Source: Anaerolineae bacterium (lineage in GTDB: Bacteria; Chloroflexota; Anaerolineae; Aggregatilineales; Phototrophicaceae). Taken from it: 64,000 nt of DNA. Each line of letters opens with the position of its first letter. The stretch's first letter is position 1. Below are positions 49,031 through 64,000 of this stretch, piece by piece. The position numbers were made by a program, and so were the translations under genes. A model generated the notes under the pieces. The model searched no databases. It was not told where the DNA came from and saw only the letters and a program-made list of their open reading frames with translations. The DNA is taken from positions 581,276-645,275 of the forward strand of contig JALHQT010000002.1 in NCBI GenBank assembly GCA_022841825.1, given 5' to 3'.

Positions 49031-51214
49031 ATGAATGATGCAACCTCGGTATCCCCATTTCCATTAGCTCGTCATTCCCTGATGTCAGGACGACTCATCT
49101 ATATTGTGCTGTTAGTACTGTGCATCGGCGTTTTTTTCCTCGCCAATTACGGTCAGGCGACGCAATGGGCGTTCGGTGACTGCGACGCGATCTACTTCCT
49201 GCCCGAATATCGCCCGAATTGTATGCTCTGGCGCGAGGCTATCTCGAATGCCGGGTTGACTCCGGCAGCATTCACGGGCTATTTCATCGTGCTGCGTGTG
49301 GCAGCCGTCCTCCCCTTCCTCTTTCTGAGCGTTACGCTGATGCGGCGGCGCGGCGGCGATCTGCGCGTCCTCCTGCTTGCGATCTTTTTGCTGCTCATCG
49401 GCACGGCAGGACCGATCTATAACCCGTTCTGGCAGTGGTCAACAGCATGGTTCACGTTGGAAAACCAACTGCCACTCTTGCCCCTGTTGAACCGTCTGCT
49501 GACGTTCCTGCTGTCTTTTGGCGCAGCCTTATTTGTCTTTCTCTTTCCAGACGGAAGGTTTGTCCCAACCTGGGCGCGCTGGATCGCGCTCGTCTGGCTG
49601 ATCATGCAGTTCGGTGATGTATTTTTCCCCGAAACACCCCTATCCCTCTACGCCCTGTCGTACCCGCTGGCGATCATCCTGCACACGACCTTTACTCTGT
49701 GCGCGGTTGGCGCGCTGATCTGGCGCTATCGCGTTCACGCGAATGCGGTGCAGCGCCAGCAGATCAAGTGGATCACCGCCGGGGCGCTGCTCCTGGCGTT
49801 GAACTACGCGCTCGATTACTCGGTTTTTGAAATCTACCCGGCTGTGACGAATGTGTATCTGGTCGCCACCCGCGAACAGGGTGTCGTGTGGGAACTGATC
49901 CAGGACACCCTGTGGTATGTCAGCCAGATCGCCTTTGCGGTCTGTGTGGGGCTGGCGGTGTTTCGCCACCGGTTGTGGGACATCGACGCCATCCTGAGCC
50001 GGACGCTGGTCTACGGCACGCTGACCGCGTTGATCATCGCGCTGTATGTGCTGATTGTGGGCGGCGTCGGCGCGATTCTGCATAGTCAGACCACTGCTGT
50101 GAATGGGTTGGTTGCGACGGGGATCATCGCCGTGCTGTTCCAACCCTTGCGCGACCGATTGCAGCGCGGTGTGAATCGTCTCCTCTATGGCGACCGCGAT
50201 GATCCGTCGGCAGTGTTCACACGACTGGCGCACCAGCTTCAAACGACCGATACCCGCGCCGCCATACTGCCAAGTCTCGCGCACACCGTCGCGCAGACGC
50301 TCAAGATTCCCTATGTCGCCATCCAACTGCCCGCCGCCAGCCCGGAAGCCCAACCCGCAGCAGCCTGGGGAGAACGTCGTGATCCTACGCAGCATATCCC
50401 CTTGATCTACCGCAACGAAACGGTGGGCGATCTGCTGGTCGCACAGCGCAGCCCACACGAGCAGTTCAACCAGCACGATCAGACGTTGTTAAGCGCCATC
50501 GCGGCACTGACCGCGACTACCGTGCGCGCCGTGCAGATGTGGGACGAATTGCAGCATTCGCGCCAGCGCATCGTCACGACGCGGGAAGAAGAACGCCGCC
50601 GCCTGCGCCGTGATCTGCACGATGGCTTGGGTCCCGCGCTCGCCAGCCTGCCGCTCAAAGTGGATGCGGCGGTCGATCTTATGGAGAATGACCATGCGAC
50701 GTCCGTCAGGCTGCTGGGTGAGGTCAAGCGACAGGCGCAGCAGCTTGTCGGCGAGGTTCGCCGTGTCGTGAACGACCTTCGCCCACCATCGCTGGACGAG
50801 TTGGGCTTGGTAGAAGCGGTGCGCGGTGCCATCAAGCATCTGCATTCGCATGGGTCCGCGCCGCAGATCCGGCTGGATGCCGACGGCGTGCCGCGCAGCC
50901 TGCCGGCGGCGGTGGAAGCGGCAGGCTATCGCATTATCATGGAAGCGGTGACGAATGTCGTCAAGCACGCCCATGCGCATCAGTGCCAGATCGCGCTGCG
51001 TCTTTCCGAAAGTCCGCCCCGTCTCCAGGTTACGATTGAGGATGACGGTGTTGGCTTGCCTGAGAAGGTGCGGGCGAATGTCGGGCTGCGCTCGATGCGC
51101 GAACGCGCCGAGGAGTTGGGCGGCACCTTTGAAATCCAGTCGCGCGCGACGGGCGGCACCGGTGTGACGGTTGCGCTGCCACTTACGGAAGGGAGGACGA
51201 ACCATGACGGATAA
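49031..51214 (+). CDS. Membrane sensor histidine kinase (NarL-type, HisKA_3)
   Basis: About 727 residues. Eight or so membrane helices span residues 15-375, including one long extracytoplasmic loop with several Cys (GDCDAIYFLPEYRPNCMLW). A GAF-like region follows (about 395-505), then the HisKA_3 dimerisation helix with phospho-acceptor His at about 530 (RRDLHDGLGPALASL). The ATPase domain has the N box EAVTNVVKHAHA and G motifs DDGVGLPE and VGLRSMRERAEELGG. It signals to the response regulator whose start overlaps by 11 bases. A start at 48959 is possible; the ATG at 49031 has a GGAAG site. Confidence 0.9.
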   Translation: MNDATSVSPFPLARHSLMSGRLIYIVLLVLCIGVFFLANYGQATQWAFGDCDAIYFLPEYRPNCMLWREAISNAGLTPAAFTGYFIVLRVAAVLPFLFLSVTLMRRRGGDLRVLLLAIFLLLIGTAGPIYNPFWQWSTAWFTLENQLPLLPLLNRLLTFLLSFGAALFVFLFPDGRFVPTWARWIALVWLIMQFGDVFFPETPLSLYALSYPLAIILHTTFTLCAVGALIWRYRVHANAVQRQQIKWITAGALLLALNYALDYSVFEIYPAVTNVYLVATREQGVVWELIQDTLWYVSQIAFAVCVGLAVFRHRLWDIDAILSRTLVYGTLTALIIALYVLIVGGVGAILHSQTTAVNGLVATGIIAVLFQPLRDRLQRGVNRLLYGDRDDPSAVFTRLAHQLQTTDTRAAILPSLAHTVAQTLKIPYVAIQLPAASPEAQPAAAWGERRDPTQHIPLIYRNETVGDLLVAQRSPHEQFNQHDQTLLSAIAALTATTVRAVQMWDELQHSRQRIVTTREEERRRLRRDLHDGLGPALASLPLKVDAAVDLMENDHATSVRLLGEVKRQAQQLVGEVRRVVNDLRPPSLDELGLVEAVRGAIKHLHSHGSAPQIRLDADGVPRSLPAAVEAAGYRIIMEAVTNVVKHAHAHQCQIALRLSESPPRLQVTIEDDGVGLPEKVRANVGLRSMRERAEELGGTFEIQSRATGGTGVTVALPLTEGRTNHDG

Positions 51215-51872
51215 CGTCATCCGGCTGCTGATTGTGGACGATCATACGTTGTTTCGTGAGGGGCTTCATGCCATCTTTCTCGCCGTCGACGACATCGAGG
51301 TCGTTGGCGAGGCTGCCAGTGCGGAAGAAGCCGTCCAGCAGGCGGGAGTGCTGAAGCCGGATGTCATTCTCATGGACATCCAGATGGGCGAAATGAACGG
51401 GATCGAAGCCAGCGAACGCATCCTCCGGCTGCTGCCGCAAACCCGGATCATCATGCTGACGATGATGGATGACAGCGATTCGCTGTTCGCGGCGATGGTG
51501 GTGGGCGCGCGCAGCTATGTCCTGAAAGGCGCGGACAAGTCCGAAGTGCTCAGGACAATCCGCGCCGTCGCCGCTGGCGAAGTGCTGTTCGGCGCGGCTG
51601 TCGCCAACCGCGTCACCGATTATTTTCGCAGGTTGGGCAGCGCGCCCGCCGCCCCGGCTGCCCCTTTCCCAGAGCTTTCCGAACGAGAACTCGAAATCCT
51701 CGAACGCATCGCGCGCGGGCTGAACAATCATGAGATCGCTGCTGAACTGTCGATCACGGTCAAAACCGTGAGCAACCATATCTCGAACATCTTCAGCAAG
51801 TTACAGGTCGCGGACCGCGCCCAGGCAATCGTCAAAGCACGCGACGCGGGGCTGGGCAAAGGCAGCCGCTGA
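51204..51872 (+). CDS. LuxR/NarL-type response regulator
   Basis: 222 residues. The receiver domain (1-125) has acidic residues at the start (VDDH), phospho-acceptor Asp58 (VILMDIQM), the conserved Thr (MLTMMDD) and Lys (VLKGA). The LuxR helix-turn-helix spans about 155-215 (LSERELEILERIARGLNNHEIAAELSITVKTVSNHISNIFSKLQVADRAQAIV). It overlaps the kinase gene by 11 bases; GGGAGG is 7 bases before the ATG at 51204. Candidate targets are the two secreted-protein genes upstream that share the 49-nt element. Confidence 0.93.
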   Translation: MTDNVIRLLIVDDHTLFREGLHAIFLAVDDIEVVGEAASAEEAVQQAGVLKPDVILMDIQMGEMNGIEASERILRLLPQTRIIMLTMMDDSDSLFAAMVVGARSYVLKGADKSEVLRTIRAVAAGEVLFGAAVANRVTDYFRRLGSAPAAPAAPFPELSERELEILERIARGLNNHEIAAELSITVKTVSNHISNIFSKLQVADRAQAIVKARDAGLGKGSR

Positions 51873-51907
51873 TGAACAGCCAGTTGTTCTATCCACGGGG
51901 GAAGATG

Positions 51908-53167
51908 ATGAAGCTGACGCTGATCGCCATTGGATCGCGCGGGGATGTTCAGCCGATTGTCGCGCTGGGGCGCGGACTGCTGGAGGCTGGCTATGCCGTG
52001 CGCATGGTCACGCTGGAGAGCTTCGAGCCGATGGTGCGCGGGCAGGGGTTGGAATTCTTTCCAGTTCAGGGGGATGCCCAGGCGCTGACCCACGAGATGA
52101 TGCTTGCCGGGATGAACGGGAAGGGACTGAACCTCTTTTCGATGTATCGCGGCATCATGCGAACGTTCGGCGCGATTGCCCAGAGCTATGAAGAGTCGTT
52201 CGCTGGCAGCGCACTTCGTGACTCCGACGCGATATTGAGTCAACTGCCCGGTGGCTTCTATGGATACGACCTGGCGGAAGCCCTGCGCGTGCCGTATTTC
52301 GCGCTGTCGGTCATCCCGCAGGAAGTCACGGGGGCATATCCCTTGTCGCTGCTGCCAATGCAGTTTTCGCTGGGAAGAGGATACAACCGCCTGACCTACG
52401 CTTTGGGGCAGCAGTTGGCATGGCATCCCTTCCGCAGGTCGATCAACGCCTTTCGCCAGCGGCTTGGGCTGCCACCTGCGTCGTTCTGGTGGGGCAACAT
52501 CCGCCGGATGGCACAGGAGCGTATTCCCGTCATTCAAGGTTTCAGCGAGCATGTCATCCCGACACAGCCGGAATGGGGCGATCATATTCACACGACGGGT
52601 TACTGGATGCTCGATGAACCTGCCTTGCAGCCCTCAGACACGCTGCTGAAGTTCCTCGAAGCGGGCGATCCCCCGGTTTTTATCGGTTTTGGCAGTATGC
52701 CCGTTCCTGACCCAGCCGGAACGACGCGCCTGATCCTCGACGCGCTGGAACACTGTGGAAAGCGCGGCATCCTACACGCCGGATGGGCAAAGCTCGGCAC
52801 GCCCGCGCTGCCGGAGACGGTGTTCGCGCTCGATTACGCGCCCTATGGCTGGTTGTTTCCGCGTATGGCGGCGATCATCCATCATGGCGGATCGGGGACA
52901 ACCGGCTTTGCGCTGCGTTCCGGTGCGCCCTCGATGGTCGTCCCTTTCACGGCGGATCAGCCGTTCTGGGGACGGCGCACGCATGAGTTGGGGGTCGGGC
53001 ACGCGCCAATCCCGTTTGCAAAGCTGACGGTCGAAAACCTCGCCCGCGCCATCCAGACGATGCTGGCGGACGCAGCGATGCAGCGGCAGGCGCGCCAACT
53101 GCGCGACGCGATGGCAGCGGAACAGGGCGTGGAGCGCGCGGTGGAGCGCATTCAAGGCTGCCTTTGA
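51908..53167 (+). CDS. GT28/GT1-like glycosyltransferase (sterol-glucosyltransferase type)
   Basis: About 419 residues with the UGT80-like layout. LTLIAIGSRGDVQPIVALGRGLLEAGYAVRMVT opens the N-terminal domain; FIGFGSMPVPDP and the donor block YAPYGWLFPRMAAIIHHGGSGTTGFALRSGAPSMVVPFTADQPFWGRR fill the C-terminal half. It transfers a sugar to a lipid or small hydrophobic acceptor. The frame opens at 51872 overlapping the regulator's stop, but GGGGGA is spaced 5 bases from the ATG at 51908, which also gives the family N-terminus. It is probably in the same transcript as the two-component genes. Confidence 0.88.
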   Translation: MKLTLIAIGSRGDVQPIVALGRGLLEAGYAVRMVTLESFEPMVRGQGLEFFPVQGDAQALTHEMMLAGMNGKGLNLFSMYRGIMRTFGAIAQSYEESFAGSALRDSDAILSQLPGGFYGYDLAEALRVPYFALSVIPQEVTGAYPLSLLPMQFSLGRGYNRLTYALGQQLAWHPFRRSINAFRQRLGLPPASFWWGNIRRMAQERIPVIQGFSEHVIPTQPEWGDHIHTTGYWMLDEPALQPSDTLLKFLEAGDPPVFIGFGSMPVPDPAGTTRLILDALEHCGKRGILHAGWAKLGTPALPETVFALDYAPYGWLFPRMAAIIHHGGSGTTGFALRSGAPSMVVPFTADQPFWGRRTHELGVGHAPIPFAKLTVENLARAIQTMLADAAMQRQARQLRDAMAAEQGVERAVERIQGCL

Positions 53168-53214
53168 CGGTGATTCTGCTGCGCACGCAGGTAACCCTCA
53201 CCCCAAACCCCGAC

Positions 53215-53251
53215 TTGACAACGCGCGCGCTTTATCGTAAAAATACGATAT
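53215..53251 (+). promoter_or_regulatory. ArsR promoter with operator overlapping the start codon
   Basis: TTGACA at 53215-53220 is spaced 17 bases from TAAAAA (53238-53243). The palindrome TTATCGTA-AAAA-TACGATA(T) spans 53232-53251 and covers the -10 box and the first bases of the ATG at 53250. The predicted transcript start coincides with the ATG, so the mRNA may be leaderless. Confidence 0.65.
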
Positions 53252-53558
53252 GATCACAACGCACGACATCAAGACCTATCAACTTACCGCCGATGAAGAG
53301 CGCGTGACTCTGATGATGAAGGCGCTCGGTCATCCGGCACGCATGCAGATTTTCCGCTACCTGAGCGAAAATCCGCAGTGCATCACGGGCGACATTGTCG
53401 AGGTACTGCCGCTGGCACAGGCGACCGTGTCGCAGCATCTCAAGGTGCTGCGCGAGTCGGGTCTGATTTGCGGGACGATTGAAGGTCCGGCGACCTGTTA
53501 CTGTTTGTGCGATGAAGCGGTCACCTGGTTCAAAGAGCAGGTCGGCGCATTGATTTAG
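53250..53558 (+). CDS. ArsR/SmtB-family repressor
   Basis: 102 residues with a winged helix: VTLMMKALGHPARMQIFRYLSE, then the recognition region VLPLAQATVSQHLKVLRESGLICGTIEG. The C-terminus has a Cys pair (TCYCLC, about 90-95) that could bind a metal(loid), and a further Cys occurs in QCITGD. It probably represses itself and the FAD oxidoreductase gene through matching palindromes at 53232 and 53589. The inducer is not determined. Confidence 0.88.
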   Translation: MITTHDIKTYQLTADEERVTLMMKALGHPARMQIFRYLSENPQCITGDIVEVLPLAQATVSQHLKVLRESGLICGTIEGPATCYCLCDEAVTWFKEQVGALI

Positions 53559-53588
53559 GCGTCACCCTCGCTCTTTTTTTACCCTGCA

Positions 53589-53608
53589 TTATCGTATTTT
53601 TACGATAA
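53589..53608 (+). promoter_or_regulatory. Second ArsR-type operator
   Basis: A perfect 20-bp palindrome TTATCGTA-TTTT-TACGATAA directly upstream of the FAD oxidoreductase ribosome site (AAGGAA at 53608-53613). It is the same sequence as the operator at 53232-53251, allowing for strand and one base. Confidence 0.7.
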
Positions 53609-53619
53609 AGGAAGTCAGC

Positions 53620-54975
53620 ATGAATGCATCGTCACTTCTCCCTGTCGCCGTTATTGGGGCGGGTCCGGTTGGACTGGCTGCCGCCGCCCACTTGATCGAA
53701 CGCGGCGAAACCCCGGTGATCTTCGAAGCCGGCGCGGCGGTCGGCGCGAGCATGCTCGATTGGGCGCATGTCCGCATGTTTTCCCCGTGGGAGTTCACCG
53801 TTGACACCGCTTCACGGCGGCTGTTGGAGCGGCATGGCTGGCAGATGCCGCCGATAGATGGACTCCCCACTGGGCGCGATATGGTCGAACGCTACTTGCA
53901 GCCCTTGGCGATGCTGCCGGAAATTCTGCCACATCTGCATCTGAATGCGCGGGTGACGGCAGTCAGCCGCCGTCATATCGACAAGATGAAAGACGGAGGA
54001 CGCGATAGTGCGCCGTTCGTGCTGCATGTGGTCTACGCCAGCGGCGAGGAAGCGCTCATTGAGGCGCGGGCGGTGATTGATGCGTCGGGGACGTGGCAGC
54101 AGCCCAACCCGATGGGTGCCAACGGTTTGCCCGCCGTCGGTGAAAAGCGCTGTGCGGACAAAATCGCCTATGGCATCCCCGACATCCTCGGCAGCGCACA
54201 GGCGCGCTACGCCAACAAGCGCGTCATGGTCGTCGGCAGCGGTCACTCTGCGCTCAATGTGCTGCTCGAACTTGCGCAACTGGCGCAGTCCGCACGGGAT
54301 ACGACGATCCTGTGGGTGATGCGCAGGGATAATCTCCGAACGGTCTACGGCGGTGGCGAAGAGGATGCACTCCCGGCACGCGGGCAGCTTGGGACACGGA
54401 TGAAAGCGGCGGTCGAAGCGGGGATTGTGCGTATCATCGCGCCGTTCCGTGTGCGCGAAGTTGCGGCAGGCGAAAGCGGCTTGGCTGTGAGCGGCGAAGC
54501 GGGCGACGGCTTAGACACCGTCCAGGTCGATGAAATCATCGTCGCCACCGGAGCGCGCCCCGAACTGGACATGCTGCGCGAACTCCGTCTCGACCTCGAT
54601 CCGTCGCTGGAAAGCACGCGCCTGCTTGCGCCGATGATCGACCCGAACATTCATTCATGCGGCACGGTACGCCCTCACGGAGAAGCCGAACTGCGCCAGC
54701 CGGAGAAGGATTTCTACATCGTCGGGATGAAAAGTTACGGGCGCGCCCCGACCTTCCTGCTGGCGACCGGGTATGAGCAGGTGCGTTCGGTCGTCGCGGC
54801 GCTGGTCGGCGATTGGGAAGCCGCCCGCGATGTCCAGTTGAATCTGCCCGAAACGGGCGTGTGCAGCACCGATCTGGTTGATGGCGGAGCGTGCTGCGCG
54901 ACCCCCATCGCACAGCCTGCGCTGGTGTCGCTCGACAGTATCACGTTCAGTGGGGTCGTCTCGCTGCGAGACTGA
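53620..54975 (+). CDS. FAD-dependent oxidoreductase (flavin monooxygenase-like)
   Basis: 451 residues with two dinucleotide-binding folds. The FAD motif is VIGAGPVGLAAAAHLIERG at about 10-28; the NAD(P) motif is MVVGSGHSALNVLLELAQ at about 202-219. IIVATGARP lies near 306. The C-terminal part has Cys residues in VCSTD and ACCATP. It resembles flavoproteins found beside ArsR and MFS genes in metal(loid) loci (ArsO-like), but an arsenical substrate is only inferred. AAGGAA is 7 bases before the ATG, right after the ArsR-type operator. Confidence 0.8.
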   Translation: MNASSLLPVAVIGAGPVGLAAAAHLIERGETPVIFEAGAAVGASMLDWAHVRMFSPWEFTVDTASRRLLERHGWQMPPIDGLPTGRDMVERYLQPLAMLPEILPHLHLNARVTAVSRRHIDKMKDGGRDSAPFVLHVVYASGEEALIEARAVIDASGTWQQPNPMGANGLPAVGEKRCADKIAYGIPDILGSAQARYANKRVMVVGSGHSALNVLLELAQLAQSARDTTILWVMRRDNLRTVYGGGEEDALPARGQLGTRMKAAVEAGIVRIIAPFRVREVAAGESGLAVSGEAGDGLDTVQVDEIIVATGARPELDMLRELRLDLDPSLESTRLLAPMIDPNIHSCGTVRPHGEAELRQPEKDFYIVGMKSYGRAPTFLLATGYEQVRSVVAALVGDWEAARDVQLNLPETGVCSTDLVDGGACCATPIAQPALVSLDSITFSGVVSLRD

Positions 54976-54983
54976 TTTTCATC

Positions 54984-56213
54984 ATGAACAAGACCAAACC
55001 TTACTACGGCTGGTATCTCGCCATCACGCTTGCCGTGACCGAAACGATCTCGTGGGGGATCATCTACTACAGCTTTTCCGTGTTCCTGACGCCGATGGAG
55101 CATGATCTTGGCTGGTCACGCGCCGAGCTGACGGGCGGCTTTTCGCTCATGTGGCTGGTCGCGGGAATGATGGCATTTCCGGTCGGTGCGTGGATCGACC
55201 AACACGGCGCGCGGGCGCTGATGACCGCCGGATCGGTCGGCGCATCGCTGCTGGTGATCGGGTGGTCATTCGTGAACACACTCCCAGCCTTATACCTGAT
55301 CTGGGCGGGATTAGGCGTATGCGCCGCCGCTGTGCTCTATGAACCCGCTTTTGCGGTGATCGCGCACTGGTTTGATCGGCGGCGAAGCACGGCACTCGCC
55401 ATCATTACCTTCGCGGCGGGTCTGGCGAGTACGATCTTTCTGCCCTTATCCGATGCGCTGCTGCGCGGCTTCGGCTGGCGCACCGCCGTCCTGCTGCTGG
55501 GAATATTTCTCGCCTGTATGACGATCCCGCTGCATGTGCTGGTGCTGCGCCGCCGACCAGCGGATTTGGGCTTACACACCGACGGGAGGCTGCCCGCCGC
55601 CGATTCTCCGGTCACCGCCGCGACCGGTGTGTCCTTTCGCGCCGCGCTGAGTGGGCAGGCGTTCTGGCTGCTCACGTTGGCGTTCGGCTTGATTTCGCTG
55701 TCGTCCGCTGCTATTCGTGTGCATTTCATCCCGTTTCTGATCGAAACAGGGATGGAATCGAGTACCGCCGCCGCTGCCACCGGCGCGATTGGGATTATGC
55801 AGGTGATTGGGCGGCTGATCTTCGCGCCGTTGGATCAGCGGTTTTCGACCCAAGCCGTTGCCCTTGGCGTGTTCGCGCTGCATGGGCTGGCGTTCATCGC
55901 GCTCCTCTTCAGCCAGTCGCTCGGCGCGCTCATCGTCTTCATCGCGATCTTTGGCGCGGCACAAGGCGCGGTCACGCTGGCACGCCCATCCATCCTTGCC
56001 GAACGCTATGGGGTGTCGCACTACGGGCGCATCTCTAGCATCATGGCACTGTTCCTGACGCTGACCAGCACCGCCGCGCCGCTGGTCGCCAGTTTGCTCC
56101 ATGACGGGGCAGCCAGCTATCAGCCGGTCTTATGGATGGTCGCGTTTTTCGCGGTGATCGCCACCGGGGTGTTGCTGCTGGTGCGCCAGGAGCGCCCTAA
56201 ACGCGAACGGTGA
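54984..56213 (+). CDS. MFS transporter
   Basis: 409 residues with twelve hydrophobic helices. It starts NKTKPYYGWYLAITLAVTETISWGIIYYSFSVFLTPMEHDLGWSRAELTGGFS, the pattern of OFA/monocarboxylate-type MFS proteins, and carries the loop WIDQHGARALMTAGS (motif A-like). It starts 8 bases after the FAD oxidoreductase stop and is probably co-regulated by the ArsR protein; it may export the product or a metal(loid) compound. Its last 276 bp (55922-56197) are repeated at 63112-63387. The gene overlaps the convergent deacetylase by 17 bases. Confidence 0.85.
   Translation: MNKTKPYYGWYLAITLAVTETISWGIIYYSFSVFLTPMEHDLGWSRAELTGGFSLMWLVAGMMAFPVGAWIDQHGARALMTAGSVGASLLVIGWSFVNTLPALYLIWAGLGVCAAAVLYEPAFAVIAHWFDRRRSTALAIITFAAGLASTIFLPLSDALLRGFGWRTAVLLLGIFLACMTIPLHVLVLRRRPADLGLHTDGRLPAADSPVTAATGVSFRAALSGQAFWLLTLAFGLISLSSAAIRVHFIPFLIETGMESSTAAAATGAIGIMQVIGRLIFAPLDQRFSTQAVALGVFALHGLAFIALLFSQSLGALIVFIAIFGAAQGAVTLARPSILAERYGVSHYGRISSIMALFLTLTSTAAPLVASLLHDGAASYQPVLWMVAFFAVIATGVLLLVRQERPKRER
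55922..56197 (+). repeat. Direct repeat, left copy (MFS 3' end)
   Basis: This 276-bp stretch recurs at 63112-63387 in the same orientation with four mismatches. All four are silent third-position changes. The pair flanks the six-gene minus-strand operon. Confidence 0.9.
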
Positions 56214-57375
56214 GCTGCTGATCCACCCGCTCAATACAGGACCAGTCTTGCACGTCCGAGCCTGCCAGGTCATAGCGCCGCCGCCACCATCGCTCGACCT
56301 CACGCGGGACGGCGTGCCAGTAGTCACTGCGCTGCTGCATCGCGCGCAGGAACGACACATAGATATCCATGAGCGTGTCATTGAGCAGGTAATCGGGGTG
56401 TGCATTTAAGAGCGCCATGCCGTGATACTGCCGGATGAAGTCCACCTTCTCAAGCCACAAACGCGGCGTGGTCTCATGCATCAACATCCTGAGTGTATGA
56501 TCCTGGATGAGCGTGTACGGCATTTCGACAAACTTGCCCACAATAAACGGGAAGATGGTCATCACCCCGCCCGGCATGGGTTCGTGGGGATCGGTATCGA
56601 AAAAGGACTGGTCATATTCGATATTGAGGGCTTGCAGCCACTCCGGCTGCCGGTGCGTAAGCGGCGCGCAGAAGGTCACGGACTTCCACTCGGCAAACAC
56701 GTCGTTGGCCCTGGGAGCCCACTTCATGAACTGCGCCTTTGAGAAGAATTCCTTCCCATCATGCCGCAGCCCGTGGACGCCGACCTCATGACCACGCTCC
56801 TGAAGCTCGCCGATCAACATCCTATCGATCGGGTAACGCTCGGCGACAAAGTTGAAGACCGAACGAAATCCATGCGCTTCATCGATGCTGGCGAGCTCGC
56901 GCACCGCCCTGCATCCGGCCTCGGCTTCCACGTCATGGCGCAGCGCAAAGGCGAACTGCCCGCGCTCTGGCCAGAAGGCGGGGAAGCGGGCGGACATCAG
57001 GCCTTTGTTGGTGAGTACACACTCGGCGGTTTTCCACAAGAAGCGCAGATAGCGATCTTCTATGGGGAAGTGGATCAGGAACTGCGCGTCATGCTTCATA
57101 CCCCGGCTGCGCAGGGCGCGCACGAGCCCCTTGGGGATGTACGGCTTCAGTTCGTAGTACAGCCGCCGGCTGGGGCTGAGCTTCCAGCGCGACTCCCCAA
57201 ACTGCCCCTCACCCAGGATCGTCTCCATGAGCGCGGAGACCGACACAAAAGGCTGCGCGCGTTCCAGGATAGGGTAGGCGCTGCGGGCTGCTTCTTCCCA
57301 TTCATCTGGGCTCACTTGAAGATCTAATTTCCAAAAATCTGCCGGTGTATTCTTAATCCATAAGTTGTTCATCAT
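56197..57375 (-). CDS. Polysaccharide-deacetylase-like protein
   Basis: About 392 residues. An NodB-like core is visible: FALRHDVEAEAG with the conserved His-Asp near 180, FNFVAERYPIDRMLIGELQERGHEVGVHGLRHDGKEFF with the metal-ligand His-X3-His, and MALLNAHPDYLL toward the end. It would remove acetyl groups from a cell-surface glycan or glycolipid. About 150 N-terminal residues are unassigned. The ATG at 57375 follows a GAGGGACGG site. It is the last gene of the ACP-to-deacetylase operon and runs 17 bases into the MFS gene. Confidence 0.78.
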   Translation of the reverse strand: MMNNLWIKNTPADFWKLDLQVSPDEWEEAARSAYPILERAQPFVSVSALMETILGEGQFGESRWKLSPSRRLYYELKPYIPKGLVRALRSRGMKHDAQFLIHFPIEDRYLRFLWKTAECVLTNKGLMSARFPAFWPERGQFAFALRHDVEAEAGCRAVRELASIDEAHGFRSVFNFVAERYPIDRMLIGELQERGHEVGVHGLRHDGKEFFSKAQFMKWAPRANDVFAEWKSVTFCAPLTHRQPEWLQALNIEYDQSFFDTDPHEPMPGGVMTIFPFIVGKFVEMPYTLIQDHTLRMLMHETTPRLWLEKVDFIRQYHGMALLNAHPDYLLNDTLMDIYVSFLRAMQQRSDYWHAVPREVERWWRRRYDLAGSDVQDWSCIERVDQQLTVRV

Positions 57376-57391
57376 AGATCCGTCCCTCAAC

Positions 57392-57895
57392 TCATTTGTG
57401 CGGTCTTCTCCGAATGGGGCGCAGCCCCTGCATGAACTCGGCGTACTCGTGCTCTGCCGTGAGCGGGACCGATACCGTCGCCAAAGCGCCAGCCGAGTCC
57501 GACCCCCAGAAGGTGTGCGCGGGCACATTGCGCGTAACCACCGTGCCCGCCTTGACGACCGCTCCCTCACCGATGCGGACGTTCGGGAGGATGACACAGT
57601 GCGGCCCGATGAAGACATCTTTCTCGATGATCACCGGCCCGGCGTGGTCGCTGCTGCGTTGTGCGCCCCAGTAGAAATGTGTGAAGATCGATGTGCGCAG
57701 CCCGATCGTGCTGTTATCGCCGATGGAGACGACCTCTGGATGGAGCTCGTCGATGTAGACCTGCTGGCTGATCCACACGTTGCGGCCGATGGTGACGCCG
57801 CGCTGCTTGTGGAGCCACGGCCGCAGGCTGCTGCCGCCAGGGGCATCCTGAGCGATCTTGTGCAAAAGGCGCTGAATGACGTTGCGCAGATTCAT
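57392..57895 (-). CDS. Hexapeptide-repeat acetyltransferase (WcaF/CysE-like fold)
   Basis: 167 residues with left-handed beta-helix hexads: [84 protein letters not shown]. The catalytic His is likely in the FTHFYWG loop. It probably O- or N-acetylates a sugar, in functional opposition or sequence to the deacetylase encoded next. It starts 3 bases after the NadE-like stop. Confidence 0.85.
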
Positions 57896-57898
57896 ACC

Positions 57899-58891
57899 TC
57901 ATCCCCCTACGAGCGCAGCCCCGGCGAATTCCACCGGTGACATGCGCAGGAATTCGGTGGTGCGTTCCTTGCGCAGCAGATCATCCTGCGCGACCCGAAC
58001 CTGTTCTTCAGTCATCTCCAGAGCGGCTGCCACCTCCGCCGTGGAGATGCCGTGCTCCTGGGCGTACCACAGCAGATCCATGAGATGAAACGGCAGACGG
58101 AAGAAGAACTCCTCCTGAGTCTGCGCGGCGCTGTAGGTGTCCGAGGTCGGCGGGCGCTGGCGAATCTCATCCGGCACGCTCAGATATTCCGCGAGTTGGT
58201 AGATTTGCGATTTGTAGAGGTGGACGATGGGGCGAACATCCACCCCGCCATCGCCATGCTTGACGAAAAAGCCCTGCATATGTTCGTTCTTGTTGGCCGT
58301 GCCGATCACCGCGTAATTGCGCAGTTCGGCATGGTAGTAGAGCATCGCCATGCGTGTGCGCTGCTTGAAATTGGAGGCCGCGACGATCTGAAAATAATCT
58401 GCCAGCTTGAGGCGCTGGGTCTTGGCTTCTCCATCCGGCGTGATGATGGTGAGCGAGAAGAAGTTGAGCGTGCCCTGTTCGAGCATGTTGTTGGGCAGCA
58501 CGATCTTAGCGGTGTAGCCTTGGGCAGCATCATACTCTGAGAAGACGCGCTGGATCGCTTCGTCGCGGCGCTGGTAGCAGCCGAAGCCATCGAGCGCGCC
58601 GGTGATCGGCTCCAGAAACGGCTCAACCCCATAGACGGCGGCAGCTTTGCGCGCCAGGCTCTCGCTCTCCGACTCCGAGTCTTTTTCGGGCAGCAGCAGC
58701 GCGGTCACTTTGTCCGGGCCGAATGCCCGCGCGCACAACGCCAGCACCACCGACGAGTCCACGCCGCCGCTGATGCCGAGCACGCCGCCGCGCCGGCGCA
58801 TGGTCGTCTGGACGGTTTCGCGCAGCGCGCTGATGATGCGTTCCGCTTCAGCCTGCGGGTCGATTTTGATGATGTCTCGACTGAATGCCAT
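57899..58891 (-). CDS. NAD-synthase-like ATP pyrophosphatase
   Basis: 330 residues of the N-type ATP-pyrophosphatase fold. The P-loop GISGGVDSS is at 39-47; FVKHGDGGVDVRPIVHLYKSQIYQLAEYLSVP and VIGTANKNEHMQGFF match the NH3-dependent NadE family, which amidates an adenylated carboxylate. A C-terminal extension reads LEMTEEQVRVAQDDLLRKERTTEFLRMSP. In this operon, next to an asparagine synthase, an AMP-ligase and an ACP, it may amidate a pathway intermediate rather than make NAD. No fused glutaminase is present. Confidence 0.82.
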   Translation of the reverse strand: MAFSRDIIKIDPQAEAERIISALRETVQTTMRRRGGVLGISGGVDSSVVLALCARAFGPDKVTALLLPEKDSESESESLARKAAAVYGVEPFLEPITGALDGFGCYQRRDEAIQRVFSEYDAAQGYTAKIVLPNNMLEQGTLNFFSLTIITPDGEAKTQRLKLADYFQIVAASNFKQRTRMAMLYYHAELRNYAVIGTANKNEHMQGFFVKHGDGGVDVRPIVHLYKSQIYQLAEYLSVPDEIRQRPPTSDTYSAAQTQEEFFFRLPFHLMDLLWYAQEHGISTAEVAAALEMTEEQVRVAQDDLLRKERTTEFLRMSPVEFAGAALVGG

Positions 58892-58905
58892 GGTGTCAGC
58901 TTTCC

Positions 58906-60912
58906 TTAGTGCGATCGAATCGGTATACGGCGGATGACCTTGACATCGTCATCAGATGCCAGCGGGTTGGCCTTCTCAAAATGGCTGATGAACTGGTGAT
59001 GGATAAGCTGAGTCGAGAGGATGCCCACCAACGCCATATCGTCGGTCTCGCCCACCCGCATCCCCCGGTTGATCTTGGCGATGAGCTGCTCGACTGCCTC
59101 GGCTCGGAAGTAGCCGCTGCCGCGAATGTGCGCGGGCGACAACAGCTCCCGCACGTAGTCGGGTGTCTGCTCATGGAAGAAGCTGCGATGAATGGGCGCG
59201 CGATACGGGCGTTTGACGCGCTGCCAGATTTCATCCGGGATATAGTCGCGCGCAAAGCGTTTCAGCATGAATTTCTCGGTCAGGCCGAACAGCTTATAGC
59301 GCGTCGGCAGGCGGTTGCAGAAATCGATCACGCGTGTATCCAGAAACGGATACCGGCCTTCGACTGAGTTGCCCAGGACGACACGATCCGCCTGGGAACT
59401 CAGGAGATACTGCGAAAGAAAGATCTGTATCTCCAGGTACTGCGCCCGCTCAAGCGGATGCCAGTTGCGGAAGCCCGGCGGAAAGTGGACGCCCAACGTC
59501 TCTACGCTGGTCTCAAGCTGTGTCTCCCAACCGGAGGCCGCCTGGTACAGCGCTTCAGAGAAGAACCGGCGGCTGCGCGCGGTGTTGCGCCAGCGCAGCG
59601 CGTGCGAGTAATCCAGGCGCTCGGTTTGTTCGAGACCCTGCCGGAAGAAGGCCGTCAGGAACGAGTCATTGACCTTCTGTAGATCCGCGATGTCCGGGTA
59701 GAGCTTCTTGAGGAGCAGCGGGCGTATCTGCGAATCCGGCTGGCGCGCCCAGAAGCGGCGGATGCGATCTTCTTTGAAGATGTCGTATCCCGCCAGGAAT
59801 TCATCGGCTCCTTCGCCGGTCATCACCACCTTGAAACCGGTCTCGCGCACCAGACGCGAGAGCAGATACATCGGCGCTGGTGACGTACGCAGGATGGGCA
59901 CTTCCGTGTGCCAGATGACCTCCGGGAAGATGGCACCAATGCTCTCATGCGTTGCATGGACGATGTGATGATTCGTGCCCAGGAAGTCCGCCATGGTCTG
60001 CTGATACACGCTCTCATCGAATGCCGGATCGCTGAAGGTGATCGAGAAGGTATCCAGGCGGTTGTCTGTGTAGTTGCGGATGATGGCGGAGGTCGTCGAG
60101 GAGTCCAGGCCGCCGCTCAGGTAGGCGCCAACTGGAACATCGGCACGCAGACGAATACGCGTGGCATCGATCAGGAGCGCGCGGAATTCCGCCAGGTAAT
60201 CTTCGAGCGGGCGCTCCGCAGCGGGGGACGCCTGGCCAAAATCAAGCTGCCAATACGGCTCGATCTTGATGTCGCCGTCCTGGGCGATCAGGACATGTCC
60301 TGGCGGAAGTTGGAAGATGTCCTTGAAGATGGTGTGCGGCGACAGCGGACTCCAGAAACTGAAGACCTCATGCATGACAACCGGGTTGATTTCGGCTGAC
60401 ACGCCCTCGTGAGCGAGGATGGCTTTGATCTCCGACGCGAAGATGAGCCTGCCATTGACCACGGTATAGAACAGCGGGCAAATCCCCAGGCGGTCGCGGG
60501 CGATAAACAGCGAGCGCGCCCCTTCATCCCAGATGGCGAAGGCGAATTGTCCGTTGAAGTGCTGCGCACAGGCACGACCGTAGGCTTCGAAGGCATGGAC
60601 GATCACCTCGGTATCTGACTGTGTCGCCATGCGGTGGCCGGATGCGATCAGGTCTTCGCGCAGTTCCAGGTAGTTGAAGATTTCGCCGTTGAAGACGACC
60701 CATTTCGTCTCATCTTCATTCGTGATCGGCTGCTGCCCTGTGCTCAAATCGATGATGCTCAGACGCGCGCTGCCCAAACCCACATCGCCGTTCAGATACA
60801 CACCAAACTGATCCGGTCCGCGATGACGAAGCATCGCCAGCATCTGTCGCAGATCCATCTCCAACACAGGGCGTGTTGTCTGCATGTTGAGTACGCCAGC
60901 GATCCCGCACAT
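58906..60912 (-). CDS. Glutamine-hydrolysing asparagine synthase (AsnB family)
   Basis: 668 residues. The N-terminal class II glutaminase has nucleophile Cys2 (CGIAGVLN), LRHRGPDQFGVYLNGDVGLGSARLSIID and NGEIFNYLEL. The synthetase domain has the P-loop GAYLSGGLDSSTTSAII (about 255-271) and GEGADEFLAGYD. In surface-polysaccharide loci AsnB homologs often act as amidotransferases on sugars or lipids rather than making asparagine. It lies 14 bases upstream of the NadE-like gene and 51 bases downstream of the AMP-ligase gene. Confidence 0.92.
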   Translation of the reverse strand: MCGIAGVLNMQTTRPVLEMDLRQMLAMLRHRGPDQFGVYLNGDVGLGSARLSIIDLSTGQQPITNEDETKWVVFNGEIFNYLELREDLIASGHRMATQSDTEVIVHAFEAYGRACAQHFNGQFAFAIWDEGARSLFIARDRLGICPLFYTVVNGRLIFASEIKAILAHEGVSAEINPVVMHEVFSFWSPLSPHTIFKDIFQLPPGHVLIAQDGDIKIEPYWQLDFGQASPAAERPLEDYLAEFRALLIDATRIRLRADVPVGAYLSGGLDSSTTSAIIRNYTDNRLDTFSITFSDPAFDESVYQQTMADFLGTNHHIVHATHESIGAIFPEVIWHTEVPILRTSPAPMYLLSRLVRETGFKVVMTGEGADEFLAGYDIFKEDRIRRFWARQPDSQIRPLLLKKLYPDIADLQKVNDSFLTAFFRQGLEQTERLDYSHALRWRNTARSRRFFSEALYQAASGWETQLETSVETLGVHFPPGFRNWHPLERAQYLEIQIFLSQYLLSSQADRVVLGNSVEGRYPFLDTRVIDFCNRLPTRYKLFGLTEKFMLKRFARDYIPDEIWQRVKRPYRAPIHRSFFHEQTPDYVRELLSPAHIRGSGYFRAEAVEQLIAKINRGMRVGETDDMALVGILSTQLIHHQFISHFEKANPLASDDDVKVIRRIPIRSH

Positions 60913-60963
60913 GATTGCTCCCCGGAGACTAGCTGCGGCTGGCAGCAGCCGAGCTGCGATGCC

Positions 60964-62493
60964 TCACAAGTCCGTCTTTCTGATCTTGCCCGACGATGTT
61001 TTCGGCAGCTCGCTGCGGAATTCGACGTACTTGGGCACGAGAAAATCTTCCAACTGGGCGCGACAGTGCGCGATGACGGCTTTTTCTGTGATGTGCTCAT
61101 CGTCGCACACCACATAGGCTTTGATGGCGCTGCCGAGGACTGCATCCGGGACGCCGACAACAGCCGCCTCTCGCACACCTTCGAGACGATACAGCACCAT
61201 CTCGATCTCTTTCGGGGCGACCTTCTCGCCGCGCGATTTGATGATGTCATCTTTGCGACCGACGAAATAGCAGTAGCCCTCGGAATCCATGCGAAACAGA
61301 TCGCCTGTGTAGCACAAACGTTCCCCAGGGAGCAGTCCAGGCCGGAAGCGTTCTCGTGTGGCTTCTTCGTTGGCCCAGTACCCGCGCATTACATGGCGAC
61401 CACGCACGACCAGTTCGCCGACTTCGTCGGGTTCGCAGCGCCGGCCATCTTCATCTTCGACCCAGACTTCCGTCCCCGGTATGGCGATACCGACCGAGCC
61501 GGGACGCTTCCTGAGCTGATCGGGCGGTAGATACAGGGTGCGTTTGGTCTCTGTCAGCCCGTACATCGAAAACAGGGTGACGCCGGGGAACTTCTCCTGG
61601 AGCTCCAGGATGTGGTTTGGGGGCAGCGCCGCCGCCGTATTGGACATGTAGCGCAGCGAGGACAGATCATAGGGGCTGATATCGTGCTGCACCAGCACCG
61701 CGAAGACCGTAGGCACTCCGGGCATCCCGGTCACGCGTTCGGTTTCGATGCGCTTGAGCAGTTCGGCGGGGAAGACAAAGCCGCGCTCCAGGATGAGCGT
61801 CCCGCCGAATTTGAACACCATCAACAGTTGATAAAGACCGTAGTCAAACGAGAGCGGCAGGACATTGATGACGATGTCATCTTCGACGTTTTCCAGGTAG
61901 GAGATGATCGAGGACGCGGCAAAGACCATATTGCTGTGATCGCTCATCACCCCCTTGGGATCGCCGGTGCTGCCCGATGTATAGATCAGGCAGGCCAGGT
62001 CGAGGTCTATACCTGGGTTTGCGGGGCGAGCTTCCGTCCCTTCGCGTTGAATCGCGGCGAATGACCGTGCACCTCGGATCAGATCCGCTGCTTCACCGGC
62101 TTCGCCACCACAGAAGATCTGCTGTTCCAAACACGGCACGTGCATGGCCAGTTGGCTGGCAAGCGCCAACTGACGAGCGGGCATCAACAGCGCCTTGGCC
62201 TGGCAGTTATTCAGGATGTAGACGAGCTTGTCCTCTTTTGTCGTGTGGTTGATGACGACAAAGACACCGCCGGCTTTGAGCACGGCGAAGATGCCGATGA
62301 CCGCTTCGACGGAATTGACGAGGAATATTCCCACACGGTCGCCGCGCCGCAGTCCGCCTTTCACAAGTGCGTGGGCGAGCCTGTTTGCCATCTGATCGAT
62401 CTGCGCATATGTCAGTCGTTGATCATCGCAGACCAGCGCCACTTTATACGGAAGCCGGGCGGCGCTGGATTCGAGAAACGACTGTACCAACAT
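60964..62493 (-). CDS. AMP-forming acyl/amino-acid ligase
   Basis: About 509 residues of the ANL superfamily. A3 phosphate loop YTSGSTGDPKG is near residue 172, A5 MYGLTETKRTL near 325, A7 YTGDLFRMDSEGYCYFVGRKDDIIKSRGEKVAPKEIE near 405, and the catalytic Lys in LPKTSSGKIRKTDL at the end. It activates a carboxylic acid with ATP, probably loading it onto the ACP encoded 41 bases upstream. The ATG at 62493 gives the normal N-terminus (LVQSFLESSAARLPYKVALV). Confidence 0.9.
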   Translation of the reverse strand: MLVQSFLESSAARLPYKVALVCDDQRLTYAQIDQMANRLAHALVKGGLRRGDRVGIFLVNSVEAVIGIFAVLKAGGVFVVINHTTKEDKLVYILNNCQAKALLMPARQLALASQLAMHVPCLEQQIFCGGEAGEAADLIRGARSFAAIQREGTEARPANPGIDLDLACLIYTSGSTGDPKGVMSDHSNMVFAASSIISYLENVEDDIVINVLPLSFDYGLYQLLMVFKFGGTLILERGFVFPAELLKRIETERVTGMPGVPTVFAVLVQHDISPYDLSSLRYMSNTAAALPPNHILELQEKFPGVTLFSMYGLTETKRTLYLPPDQLRKRPGSVGIAIPGTEVWVEDEDGRRCEPDEVGELVVRGRHVMRGYWANEEATRERFRPGLLPGERLCYTGDLFRMDSEGYCYFVGRKDDIIKSRGEKVAPKEIEMVLYRLEGVREAAVVGVPDAVLGSAIKAYVVCDDEHITEKAVIAHCRAQLEDFLVPKYVEFRSELPKTSSGKIRKTDL

Positions 62494-62534
62494 ATGACAC
62501 CACTTCATCTCCACAGCGTCACCTGTGGATTGTT

Positions 62535-62786
62535 TCAGTTCAGCAAAGACCGGGTCTCGATGTACCTTACCAGGCTGGCGACCGAGTCGAAGTTTTCCCG
62601 CGTGACATCGCTGTCGGGAACCTGGAGATTGAATCGCTCCTCGACAAACAGCACCAGATCCATCACGCCAACGGAGTCGATGATGCCTTCATTGAGAAAG
62701 GACGTGTGGTCATCAACTGTGACATCGCCCTGAGCAAACAGCAGATTCTCGGCAATATACTTCTGAATTTCCTCGCGGGCATCCAT
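62535..62786 (-). CDS. Acyl carrier protein
   Basis: 83 residues with the four-helix ACP pattern and phosphopantetheine site Ser38 in GIIDSVGVMDLVLFVEERF. It is acidic and stand-alone. AGGGGAAA precedes the ATG at 62786. It opens the operon and is followed by the AMP-ligase, so it is the likely carrier of the activated acyl or aminoacyl group. It is unlike the housekeeping fatty-acid ACP context. Confidence 0.9.
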   Translation of the reverse strand: MDAREEIQKYIAENLLFAQGDVTVDDHTSFLNEGIIDSVGVMDLVLFVEERFNLQVPDSDVTRENFDSVASLVRYIETRSLLN

Positions 62787-62953
62787 GGTTTCCCCTACTC
62801 TACTGGCTTTTTTCAAAGGATTGCCTTCGATGCAGATATTCATTTGAGAAAGTTCGATAATAATTAAGTGAACAGCATCTTAAAGGTACTTCAGGTTGGG
62901 CCGATGCGCAAGTATCTTTAGCTGAAGGGTGCATTCGGAAATGGGGGTAGAAA
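62787..62953. other. Upstream region of the ACP operon
   Basis: Gene-free and AT-richer than its surroundings around 62840-62890, so it probably contains the operon promoter on the minus strand. No hexamer pair stands out enough to call. Beyond it begins the transposase remnant. Confidence 0.4.
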
Positions 62954-63111
62954 TCAGGCGGCGTGCCAGCGACTCTGAAAAGAGCGGTCCATGACCGCCG
63001 AGCGCAGGACCAACATACGCTCGGCACCGGAACGAGACCAGCGCATGCCGGATGGCGTGAAGGATGCCAACGATTGGTTGGTGCAGGGCGCAGCGGTCGA
63101 GGAAGTGCAGG
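62954..63111 (-). pseudogene. Transposase C-terminal remnant
   Basis: The minus-strand frame ending at 62954 reads SLASFTPSGMRWSRSGAERMLVLR and ends RWHAA. The GMRWSRxGAxxMLxLR motif is typical of the C-terminus of ISKra4/UPF0236-like transposases. Upstream of about 63111 the same frame runs into the antisense of the MFS fragment, so only the tail of the transposase is left. No inverted repeats were located. Confidence 0.5.
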
Positions 63112-63430
63112 CGGCGCGCTCATCGTCTTCATCGCGATCTTTGGCGCGGCACAAGGCGCGGTCACGCTGGCACGCCCATCCATCCTTGCCGAACGCTATG
63201 GGGTGTCGCACTACGGGCGCATCTCCAGCATCATGGCGCTGTTCCTGACGCTGACCAGCACCGCCGCGCCGCTGGTCGCCAGTTTGCTCCACGACGGGGC
63301 AGCCAGCTATCAGCCCGTCTTATGGATGGTCGCGTTTTTCGCGGTGATCGCCACCGGGGTGTTGCTGCTGGTGCGCCAGGAGCGCCCGCCTGCACTGGCG
63401 CATCCTGCTGGCGTTCAGCCCGGTGTGTGA
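63112..63430 (+). pseudogene. Truncated MFS transporter copy (right direct repeat)
   Basis: Bases 63112-63387 repeat the MFS gene 3' end at 55922-56197 with four silent changes and encode the same roughly 91 residues (LIVFIAIFGAAQGAVTLA to LLLVRQERP). The frame then continues to a different C-terminus (PALAHPAGVQPGV) and stops at 63430. There is no start or N-terminal half, so it is not functional. It abuts the transposase remnant. Confidence 0.8.
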
Positions 63431-63453
63431 AAACACCTGTCAATTGATCATGC

Positions 63454-64000
63454 TCAGGAGTCTGGCACACGATCACGATTGACGTGTACCTGCGCCGCCA
63501 GCGCGGCATAGTAGCCGCACATGCCATGCACACCACCGCCCGGTGGCGTGGATGACGAGCAGAGGAACAGGTTGTCCAGTGGGGTCGAATAAGGAATGAT
63601 GCGTGGTGCCGGGCGGGTGAAGAGCTGCGCCAGGTCTTGCACGCCCCCATTGATGTCGCCGCCCACATAGTTGGGGTTGTACTGCTCCATCGCGTGGGCG
63701 GTATGCGTGCGCCGGGCAAGGACGCACTCCCGGAAGCCCGGCGCAAAACGCTCGATCTGCTGCTCGATGACCGTCGTCATATCCACAGTGGAATCGTGAG
63801 GTACGTGGCAGTACGCCCAAGCGATGTGTTTGCCTGCCGGGGCGCGGCTTGGATCAAACAAGGTGGGCTGTACCAGCAGCGTGTAGGGATGCGGGCTGTG
63901 TTCGCCCTGCCACATCGCTCGTTCACTGCGGGCGATCTCTTCTAATGTGCCGCCGAGGTGAACGGTAGCCGCCCGCTGGATGGCGGGGTTCCGCCAGGGG
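63454..64000 (-). CDS. Phytoene-dehydrogenase-like FAD oxidoreductase, C-terminal part (cut by window edge)
   Basis: The open frame runs from the stop at 63454 through the window edge. The visible 181 residues (from PWRNPAIQRAATVHLGGTLEEIARSE) match the C-terminal half of COG1233-type proteins: LLVQPTLFDPSRAPAGKHIAWAYCHVPH, FAPGFRECVLARR, NPNYVGGDINGGVQDL, LFLCSSSTPPGGGVHGMCGYYAA. The last segment is the FAD-binding C-terminal motif. Members desaturate carotenoids or act on unknown lipids; with the N-terminus missing, the substrate is open. An internal ATG at 63915 is not the start. Confidence 0.85.
   Translation of the reverse strand, partial: PWRNPAIQRAATVHLGGTLEEIARSERAMWQGEHSPHPYTLLVQPTLFDPSRAPAGKHIAWAYCHVPHDSTVDMTTVIEQQIERFAPGFRECVLARRTHTAHAMEQYNPNYVGGDINGGVQDLAQLFTRPAPRIIPYSTPLDNLFLCSSSTPPGGGVHGMCGYYAALAAQVHVNRDRVPDS

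Follow-up and report, generated by a model that had tools for sequence, protein, structure and literature searches.

A six-gene operon between two copies of a transporter gene end in an Anaerolineae bacterium: a candidate insertion-duplication

In a 64,000-nucleotide stretch of the Anaerolineae bacterium assembly GCA_022841825.1 (the window, whose numbering, 1 to 64,000, gives the coordinates below), six minus-strand genes are bracketed by two copies of the 3′ end of a major facilitator superfamily (MFS) transporter gene. The genome is a 5.9-Mb draft in 21 contigs, with an estimated contamination of 2.36%, and the locus sits within a 907-kb contig (C2 of this genome, G000). We hold, with about even confidence, that this arrangement is the product of insertion-duplication beside a resident MFS gene, by a single crossover or a one-sided illegitimate event. 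The evidence consists of the repeat itself, the silent differences between its copies, a mosaic of gene fragments at the right border, bases common to two of these fragments at their junction, and the patchy occurrence of the operon's deacetylase gene among relatives.

The copies (55922-56197 and 63112-63387) lie in the same orientation, 7,190 bp from start to start, and are identical at 272 of 276 positions, i.e., they differ by 1.4%. The four mismatches all fall at third codon positions and are silent: 56036 (T in the left copy, C in the right; Ser), 56048 (A/G; Ala), 56102 (T/C; His), and 56126 (G/C; Pro). These coordinates and mismatches agree exactly with those given in an earlier, sequence-only reading of this DNA. 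No third copy was found in the 5.9-Mb genome, for which 40 of 90 first-look candidates were scored. The insert is bounded by exact repeat edges, and one MFS copy is complete and the other truncated, as single-crossover insertion-duplication requires. On the left, the copy ends at 56197, on the final base of the stop codon of the deacetylase gene; the MFS gene (ending at 56213) and the deacetylase gene (ending at 56197) overlap tail to tail. On the right, the copy corresponds to MFS residues 325-416, in the 420-residue reading used for comparison, and its reading frame continues to a stop at 63430, toward a phytoene-dehydrogenase-like (PDH-like) gene. The repeat is unusual for its contig. In 890 kb, 67 self-matches have a length of 100 bp or more and an identity of 85% or more (36 lie within 20 kb); three pairs reach 97%, and the present one is the most widely spaced of the three (6.9 kb vs. 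11 bp and 3.9 kb). All six genes lie between the copies, so the repeat brackets the whole operon, as the sequence-only reading had it. The features are listed below, with protein profile scores (Pfam, NCBIfam/TIGRFAM) compared with curated cut-offs.

53250..53558, plus strand: ArsR-type regulator (Pfam HTH_5, E 2e-12)
53620..54975, plus strand: FAD-dependent oxidoreductase (Pfam Pyr_redox_3; ArsO family 55 bits, far below the cut-off of 425)
54984..56213, plus strand: complete MFS transporter gene, with the first ATG beyond the oxidoreductase stop used as its start (MFS_1, E 6e-37; ArsK 143 bits, cut-off 400)
55922..56197, plus strand: left copy, MFS 3′ end, 272/276 identical to the right copy
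56197..57375, minus strand: NodB-like polysaccharide deacetylase (Polysacc_deac_1, E 0.006, below cut-off; TIGR03006 20 bits, cut-off 276)
57392..57895, minus strand: hexapeptide (LbH) acyltransferase (Pfam Hexapep; 71% identity to G139)
57899..58891, minus strand: NAD-synthase-family enzyme (NF002048 459 bits, cut-off 313; 74% to G045)
58906..60912, minus strand: AsnB-type glutamine-dependent amidotransferase (TIGR01536 504 bits, above cut-off; 65% to G045)
60964..62514, minus strand: AMP-forming acyl ligase (Pfam AMP-binding; TIGR03098 480 bits, cut-off 592)
62535..62843, minus strand: acyl carrier protein (ACP) (Pfam PP-binding)
62925..63051, minus strand: right end of an ISKra4-like insertion sequence (IS), comprising the terminal repeat and last transposase codons; inner edge approximate
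63038..63117, plus strand: piece of a primase-like gene of the CHC2/Toprim type (85% identity over 80 bp with L076, in genome G067)
63112..63387, plus strand: right copy, MFS 3′ end, 5′-truncated, frame to the stop at 63430
63454..64000, minus strand: PDH-like gene, 3′ part, extending past the window (62-71% to seven relatives)

The sequence that separates the right copy from the ACP gene is a mosaic of fragments. The IS end is 74-76% identical over 125-126 bp to IS ends in relatives (L073 and L075). Its protein, in a 52-residue query that starts with the antisense of the primase piece, scored 26 bits against NF033572 (cut-off 205), and the same mixed query had no match in plasmids; because of this mixture, its tally of 28 of 121 genomes was set aside. 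At its left edge, which is ambiguous by several bases, the primase piece runs into the IS match; at its right edge it runs into the MFS fragment, with which it has CGGCGC (63112-63117) in common. The transposase tail had been described as abutting the right copy, and this is the one part of the earlier observation that did not hold: the tail ends about 60 bases short, and it is the primase-like piece, 60-80 bp long, that touches the copy. Primase-like genes occur at three other places in this genome; the fragment is about 70% identical in DNA to two of these (L100, and the overlapping loci L101/L102) and has no match to L099, as compared with 85% to G067. One of the three is broken (G000:C3:639692-642162), lying in two pieces with a TAG within the first. 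An exact 54-base pattern of the junction had no match in viral_contigs. Beyond the right copy, the frame of the PDH-like gene is interrupted by a TGA at codon 239 of 479 (window equivalent 64177; L043 10452), at a place where seven relatives have open frames of 472-516 amino acids. The gene is probably a pseudogene, or else the TGA is a sequencing error.

These elements could have been assembled as follows. The resident locus would have read ArsR, FAD oxidoreductase, and MFS, facing the PDH-like gene, an order that we can only infer since no relative examined has MFS beside the PDH-like gene. The incoming DNA, from a related strain, would have carried an MFS 3′ end (1.4% diverged, by silent changes only) joined to the operon, together with the IS end and the piece of primase gene. 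In its simplest form, it would be a circle of 7,190 bp closed by an illegitimate joining of primase and MFS at CGGCGC, and one homologous crossover within the 276 bp would place the whole circle beside MFS. Three parts would then follow one another: a complete MFS gene with final codons of incoming origin, the operon, and a truncated MFS end that keeps its former downstream neighbor. The same product may have come from linear DNA, joined by homology at one end and illegitimately at the other. A ComEC-type protein is encoded in this genome, but also in 10 of 14 control genomes. Two other vehicles were tried and rejected. As for a transposon, instead of bounding terminal inverted repeats and a short target duplication we found no inverted repeats of at least 25 bp in 50000-64000, a bounding repeat made of 276 bp of coding sequence, and a single IS end inside it. 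As for an integrative element (integrative and conjugative element or phage), no integrase, replication, or transfer gene was recognized in the insert; its six genes are metabolic, the primase piece is short, and the other open reading frames (ORFs), which overlap these, were not searched one by one.

The four differences bear on whether two alleles were involved and on which of them was resident. Silent changes make up 27% of the possible single changes in the 276 bp; weighting in favor of transitions and GC-to-AT changes raises this share to 35%. Four silent changes out of four would occur under unselected change with a P of 0.005 (unweighted) or 0.015 (weighted in this way). This is suggestive rather than overwhelming. 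It favors two alleles that diverged while both were functional, as the sequence-only reading had proposed, over decay of a fragment, although there are only four events. That the right MFS fragment is kept by selection as a fusion gene was rejected, since ORF coordinates place it in another frame than the primase piece. To orient the changes, we compared the codons of orthologs at the four sites (18 rows, corresponding to 16 distinct loci, G022 and G007 appearing twice each). At 56036, the residue is encoded by TCC in seven loci and by TCG in three, and is AGC/AGT-encoded or alanine in six; TCT, the codon of the left copy, occurs in none. Among the six loci with alanine at 56048, four have GCG (as in the right copy), one GCA (as in the left), and one GCC. 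The left copy thus looks derived at these two sites, and the right copy carries the ancestral-looking TCC and GCG, which suggests a polarity. Because it is contiguous with the PDH-side flank and has ancestral-looking codons at two sites, we take the right copy as the more likely resident remnant; the left 3′ end, because its last codons run into the operon and because it looks derived at the same two sites, would have come in with the operon.

A history within one cell is the rival that survives best, and we give it a minor but real chance. By replicative template switching, MFS would have been copied to 56197, followed by a switch to a template with operon and scrap and a return 276 bp upstream at CGGCGC, so that the copies were identical at birth and acquired their silent changes later. 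This would yield the same product and the same common bases at the return junction with no need for a second MFS allele; selection would keep silent those changes that fell in the intact MFS, to which two of the four are oriented. However, an unselected fragment should change faster. If selection acts on one copy and leaves the other free, the former is expected to hold 21-26% of the changes, and the probability that it holds at least three of the four is 0.03-0.06, falling to 0.002-0.005 for all four. Next comes an assembly artifact, which we regard as unlikely: in a mixture of strains, one with MFS followed by the operon and one with MFS followed by the PDH-like gene, the two would have been joined, and the differences would be population variation. 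A divergence of 1.4%, silent only, does resemble that of population alleles of a selected gene, as far as can be inferred, and the genome is a 21-contig draft with the estimated contamination given above. Against this, the primase/MFS junction at 63112 must still exist somewhere, the site is inside the 907-kb contig, and four differences in 276 bp help an assembler to separate the copies.

The polarity preferred in the sequence-only reading, where the right copy derives from a diverged functional allele and the left MFS is purely resident, is improbable. The silent differences would suit it, but it is the right copy that joins the PDH flank and looks ancestral at both sites that can be oriented, and the left end that is contiguous with the operon. 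That the MFS fragment is unrelated scrap, gathered with other gene pieces beside an already settled operon, is very improbable, since a piece ending exactly at the border of left copy and operon would be a coincidence, even with IS and primase pieces adjoining it, a nonsense codon in the PDH-like gene, and another tandem duplication (88.7% over 3 kb) that lies 3-12 kb farther right. The latter (G000 C2 647800-656406; L043 from 12800 into L044) consists of long ORFs that are regulator-like by inspection and includes a 412-bp pair at 97.1% identity. Another direct repeat on this contig has two adjacent units of 908 bp, 35 bp apart and 96.1% identical (window 38210-40059; C2 619485-621334).

The operon itself looks accessory, judging from its distribution. 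In a survey of 98 genomes of the family and 154 of the order, both including this one and the former including several incomplete drafts, the deacetylase was missing from all 97 family genomes apart from this one (1/98 in total) and present in 10 of the 154 order genomes, a count that includes our own and one weak match. Its identity to eight order genomes is 46-53%. Of these eight strong loci, only that of G139 (L154), which belongs to another family, has all six genes, in the same order and at 36-71% identity; there, the operon is followed by a Gfo/Idh-type and then a DegT-type gene (types by inspection). In the other seven stretches (14-20 kb, some near contig ends), the deacetylase is the sole match. 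A scan of genome_contigs with the deacetylase gave two loci, including L082, which we took as one record with G122 (L153; same match) and counted once; its deacetylase lies amid glycosyltransferase-like and sugar-transferase-like genes (again by inspection). For the AsnB-type enzyme, the identities are 65% to G045 and 60% to G047, the next by score being 39%, with shorter partial matches up to 48% (61 genomes, without G139). The core of ACP, ligase, AsnB, and NAD synthase (NadE) genes is also found in G045 and on rhizobial plasmids; the set recurs in relatives of the order and on those plasmids at L046, L154, L158, and L159. A plasmid search for an independent record of the junction returned 130 distant matches, of which the five listed cover 31-32% and none covers most of the query.

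From the gene types and the neighbors in relatives, the operon is likely a cassette that serves the acyl/amide modification of a surface glycan or lipid. We know of no product assigned to the ACP-ligase-AsnB-NadE set, and literature searches on this gene set and on XrtA loci returned no paper. A broader idea, which is speculative and probably wrong, is that this core, with or without the LbH and deacetylase genes, is a widely transferred cassette for an undescribed acyl-amide modification of a surface molecule, and that it spreads between Anaerolineae families as small non-replicating circles, via single crossovers in the gene ends that they carry.

Several results weigh against insertion-duplication from a related strain. 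First, no empty site was found. MFS DNA matches were present in 20 of 61 genomes including our own, in a search that scored 6 first-look candidates per genome and may have missed some; PDH-like protein matches were present in 90 of 101, again with our own, many of them weak. The PDH-like gene was absent from all 19 MFS loci examined in other genomes (L004-L022, of which L020-L022 have no MFS protein match, plus L048-L051, which are longer and from the same genomes), and MFS was absent from the best 14 PDH loci (L085-L098) of the 89 other matching genomes, within flanks of about 1.5 kb, some of them ended by contig edges. G022 does have the ArsR, FAD, and MFS matches adjacent to each other. No strain with a donor arrangement was seen among the relatives searched, and a second strain of the source species was not met in the searches. 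Second, the third-position content of G+C and the codon use of the operon are host-like, so that composition shows no recent foreign origin: its codon-use value B is 0.130, as compared with a median of 0.126 (5-95%: 0.096-0.174) in 300 comparably sized sets sampled at random from 41 long, non-overlapping window ORFs that were mechanically called and may include false ones. The operon is therefore old in such genomes or came from a similar genome. Third, two of the four differences give no orientation. At 56102, a single ortholog has histidine, with the CAC of the right copy. At 56126, the eight loci with proline have CCG (left) in four, CCC (right) in three, and CCA in one, the nearest full-length ortholog, from G022, having CCG and the next, from G007, CCC.

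The borders supply further points. Six identical bases turn up at 81 of 200,000 position pairs picked at random in the window, which counts in favor of insertion-duplication; in a GC-rich genome, however, CGGCGC is weak evidence, and G067 is only an approximation to the parental primase sequence. Nor are common bases needed for joins made by homology-facilitated illegitimate recombination (HFIR): of four such joins made in the laboratory, three are reported to have no common base and one a single nucleotide (PMC3240628). Finally, a perfect 11-bp inverted repeat, AGTGCAGGCGG, stands at both edges of the right copy (63104-63114 and 63386-63396), which insertion-duplication leaves unexplained. 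One of this length is common to 71 of 200,000 random pairs of 30-bp stretches; since it was spotted post hoc, with no correction, it may be due to chance. Taken against the sequence-only reading, which saw an island acquired or moved by homologous recombination, these findings leave an accessory operon, absent from 97 relatives as judged by its deacetylase, and a repeat that fits integration via MFS homology. The predicted empty site, with MFS directly followed by the PDH-like gene in operon-free relatives, was not found in the loci examined, codon use showed no difference between the operon and its host, and the polarity was not supported.

If insertion-duplication is right, the locus shows, in a form that can still be read, how an accessory operon can enter a chromosome with neither an integrase nor an intact transposon. 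Entry would need homology on one side and a few common bases on the other, and the silent-only differences between the copies would preserve which allele was resident. The gene set is also a recurring one, complete in one genome from another family and partial on rhizobial plasmids.

Among known systems, the gene content can be compared with two. In the exopolysaccharide loci associated with XrtA/PEP-CTERM, the AsnB-type enzyme, the AMP ligase, and the deacetylase have counterparts in TIGR03108, TIGR03098, and TIGR03006, against which ours do score. However, they do so at 441 of 817, 480 of 592, and 20 of 276 bits, respectively, all three below the curated cut-offs, and on these scores we do not count the operon as such a locus; no search for an exosortase was made. 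The rhizobial plasmid clusters (Mesorhizobium AR07, L159, and S. kummerowiae, L158) also have NadE, AsnB, AMP ligase, and ACP genes adjacent to each other, but in a different order. In L158, the identity is 47-54% for three of the four genes and 35% for ACP, and there is no deacetylase or LbH match. In AR07, the cluster has transposase genes of IS481 and IS66 nearby, at distances of about 5 and 6 kb.

As for the mode of entry, the scar is of a known kind. With HFIR, it has in common one homologous and one illegitimate end; the HFIR product is reported generally to have a deletion of resident DNA of about the length of the insert (PMC3240628), whereas here resident sequence is duplicated. A narrow literature search on HFIR with microhomology and duplication found nothing relevant. 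The closer parallel is an Escherichia coli experiment on the 3′ end of lacZ, where 56 of 60 Lac- clones gave a polymerase chain reaction product indicative of duplication, and the 14 duplication clones that were sequenced had 109-950 bp duplicated; the remaining four clones were HFIR with deletion (PMC3240628). Its authors attribute the duplications to a single crossover with a re-circularized plasmid that had lost part of its homology (PMC3240628). In that experiment, a selected laboratory plasmid was involved, whereas here it is a chromosomal operon in an Anaerolineae draft, with diverged copies. Yet in both, part of the 3′ end of a gene is duplicated around the insert (PMC3240628), over 276 bp in the present case.

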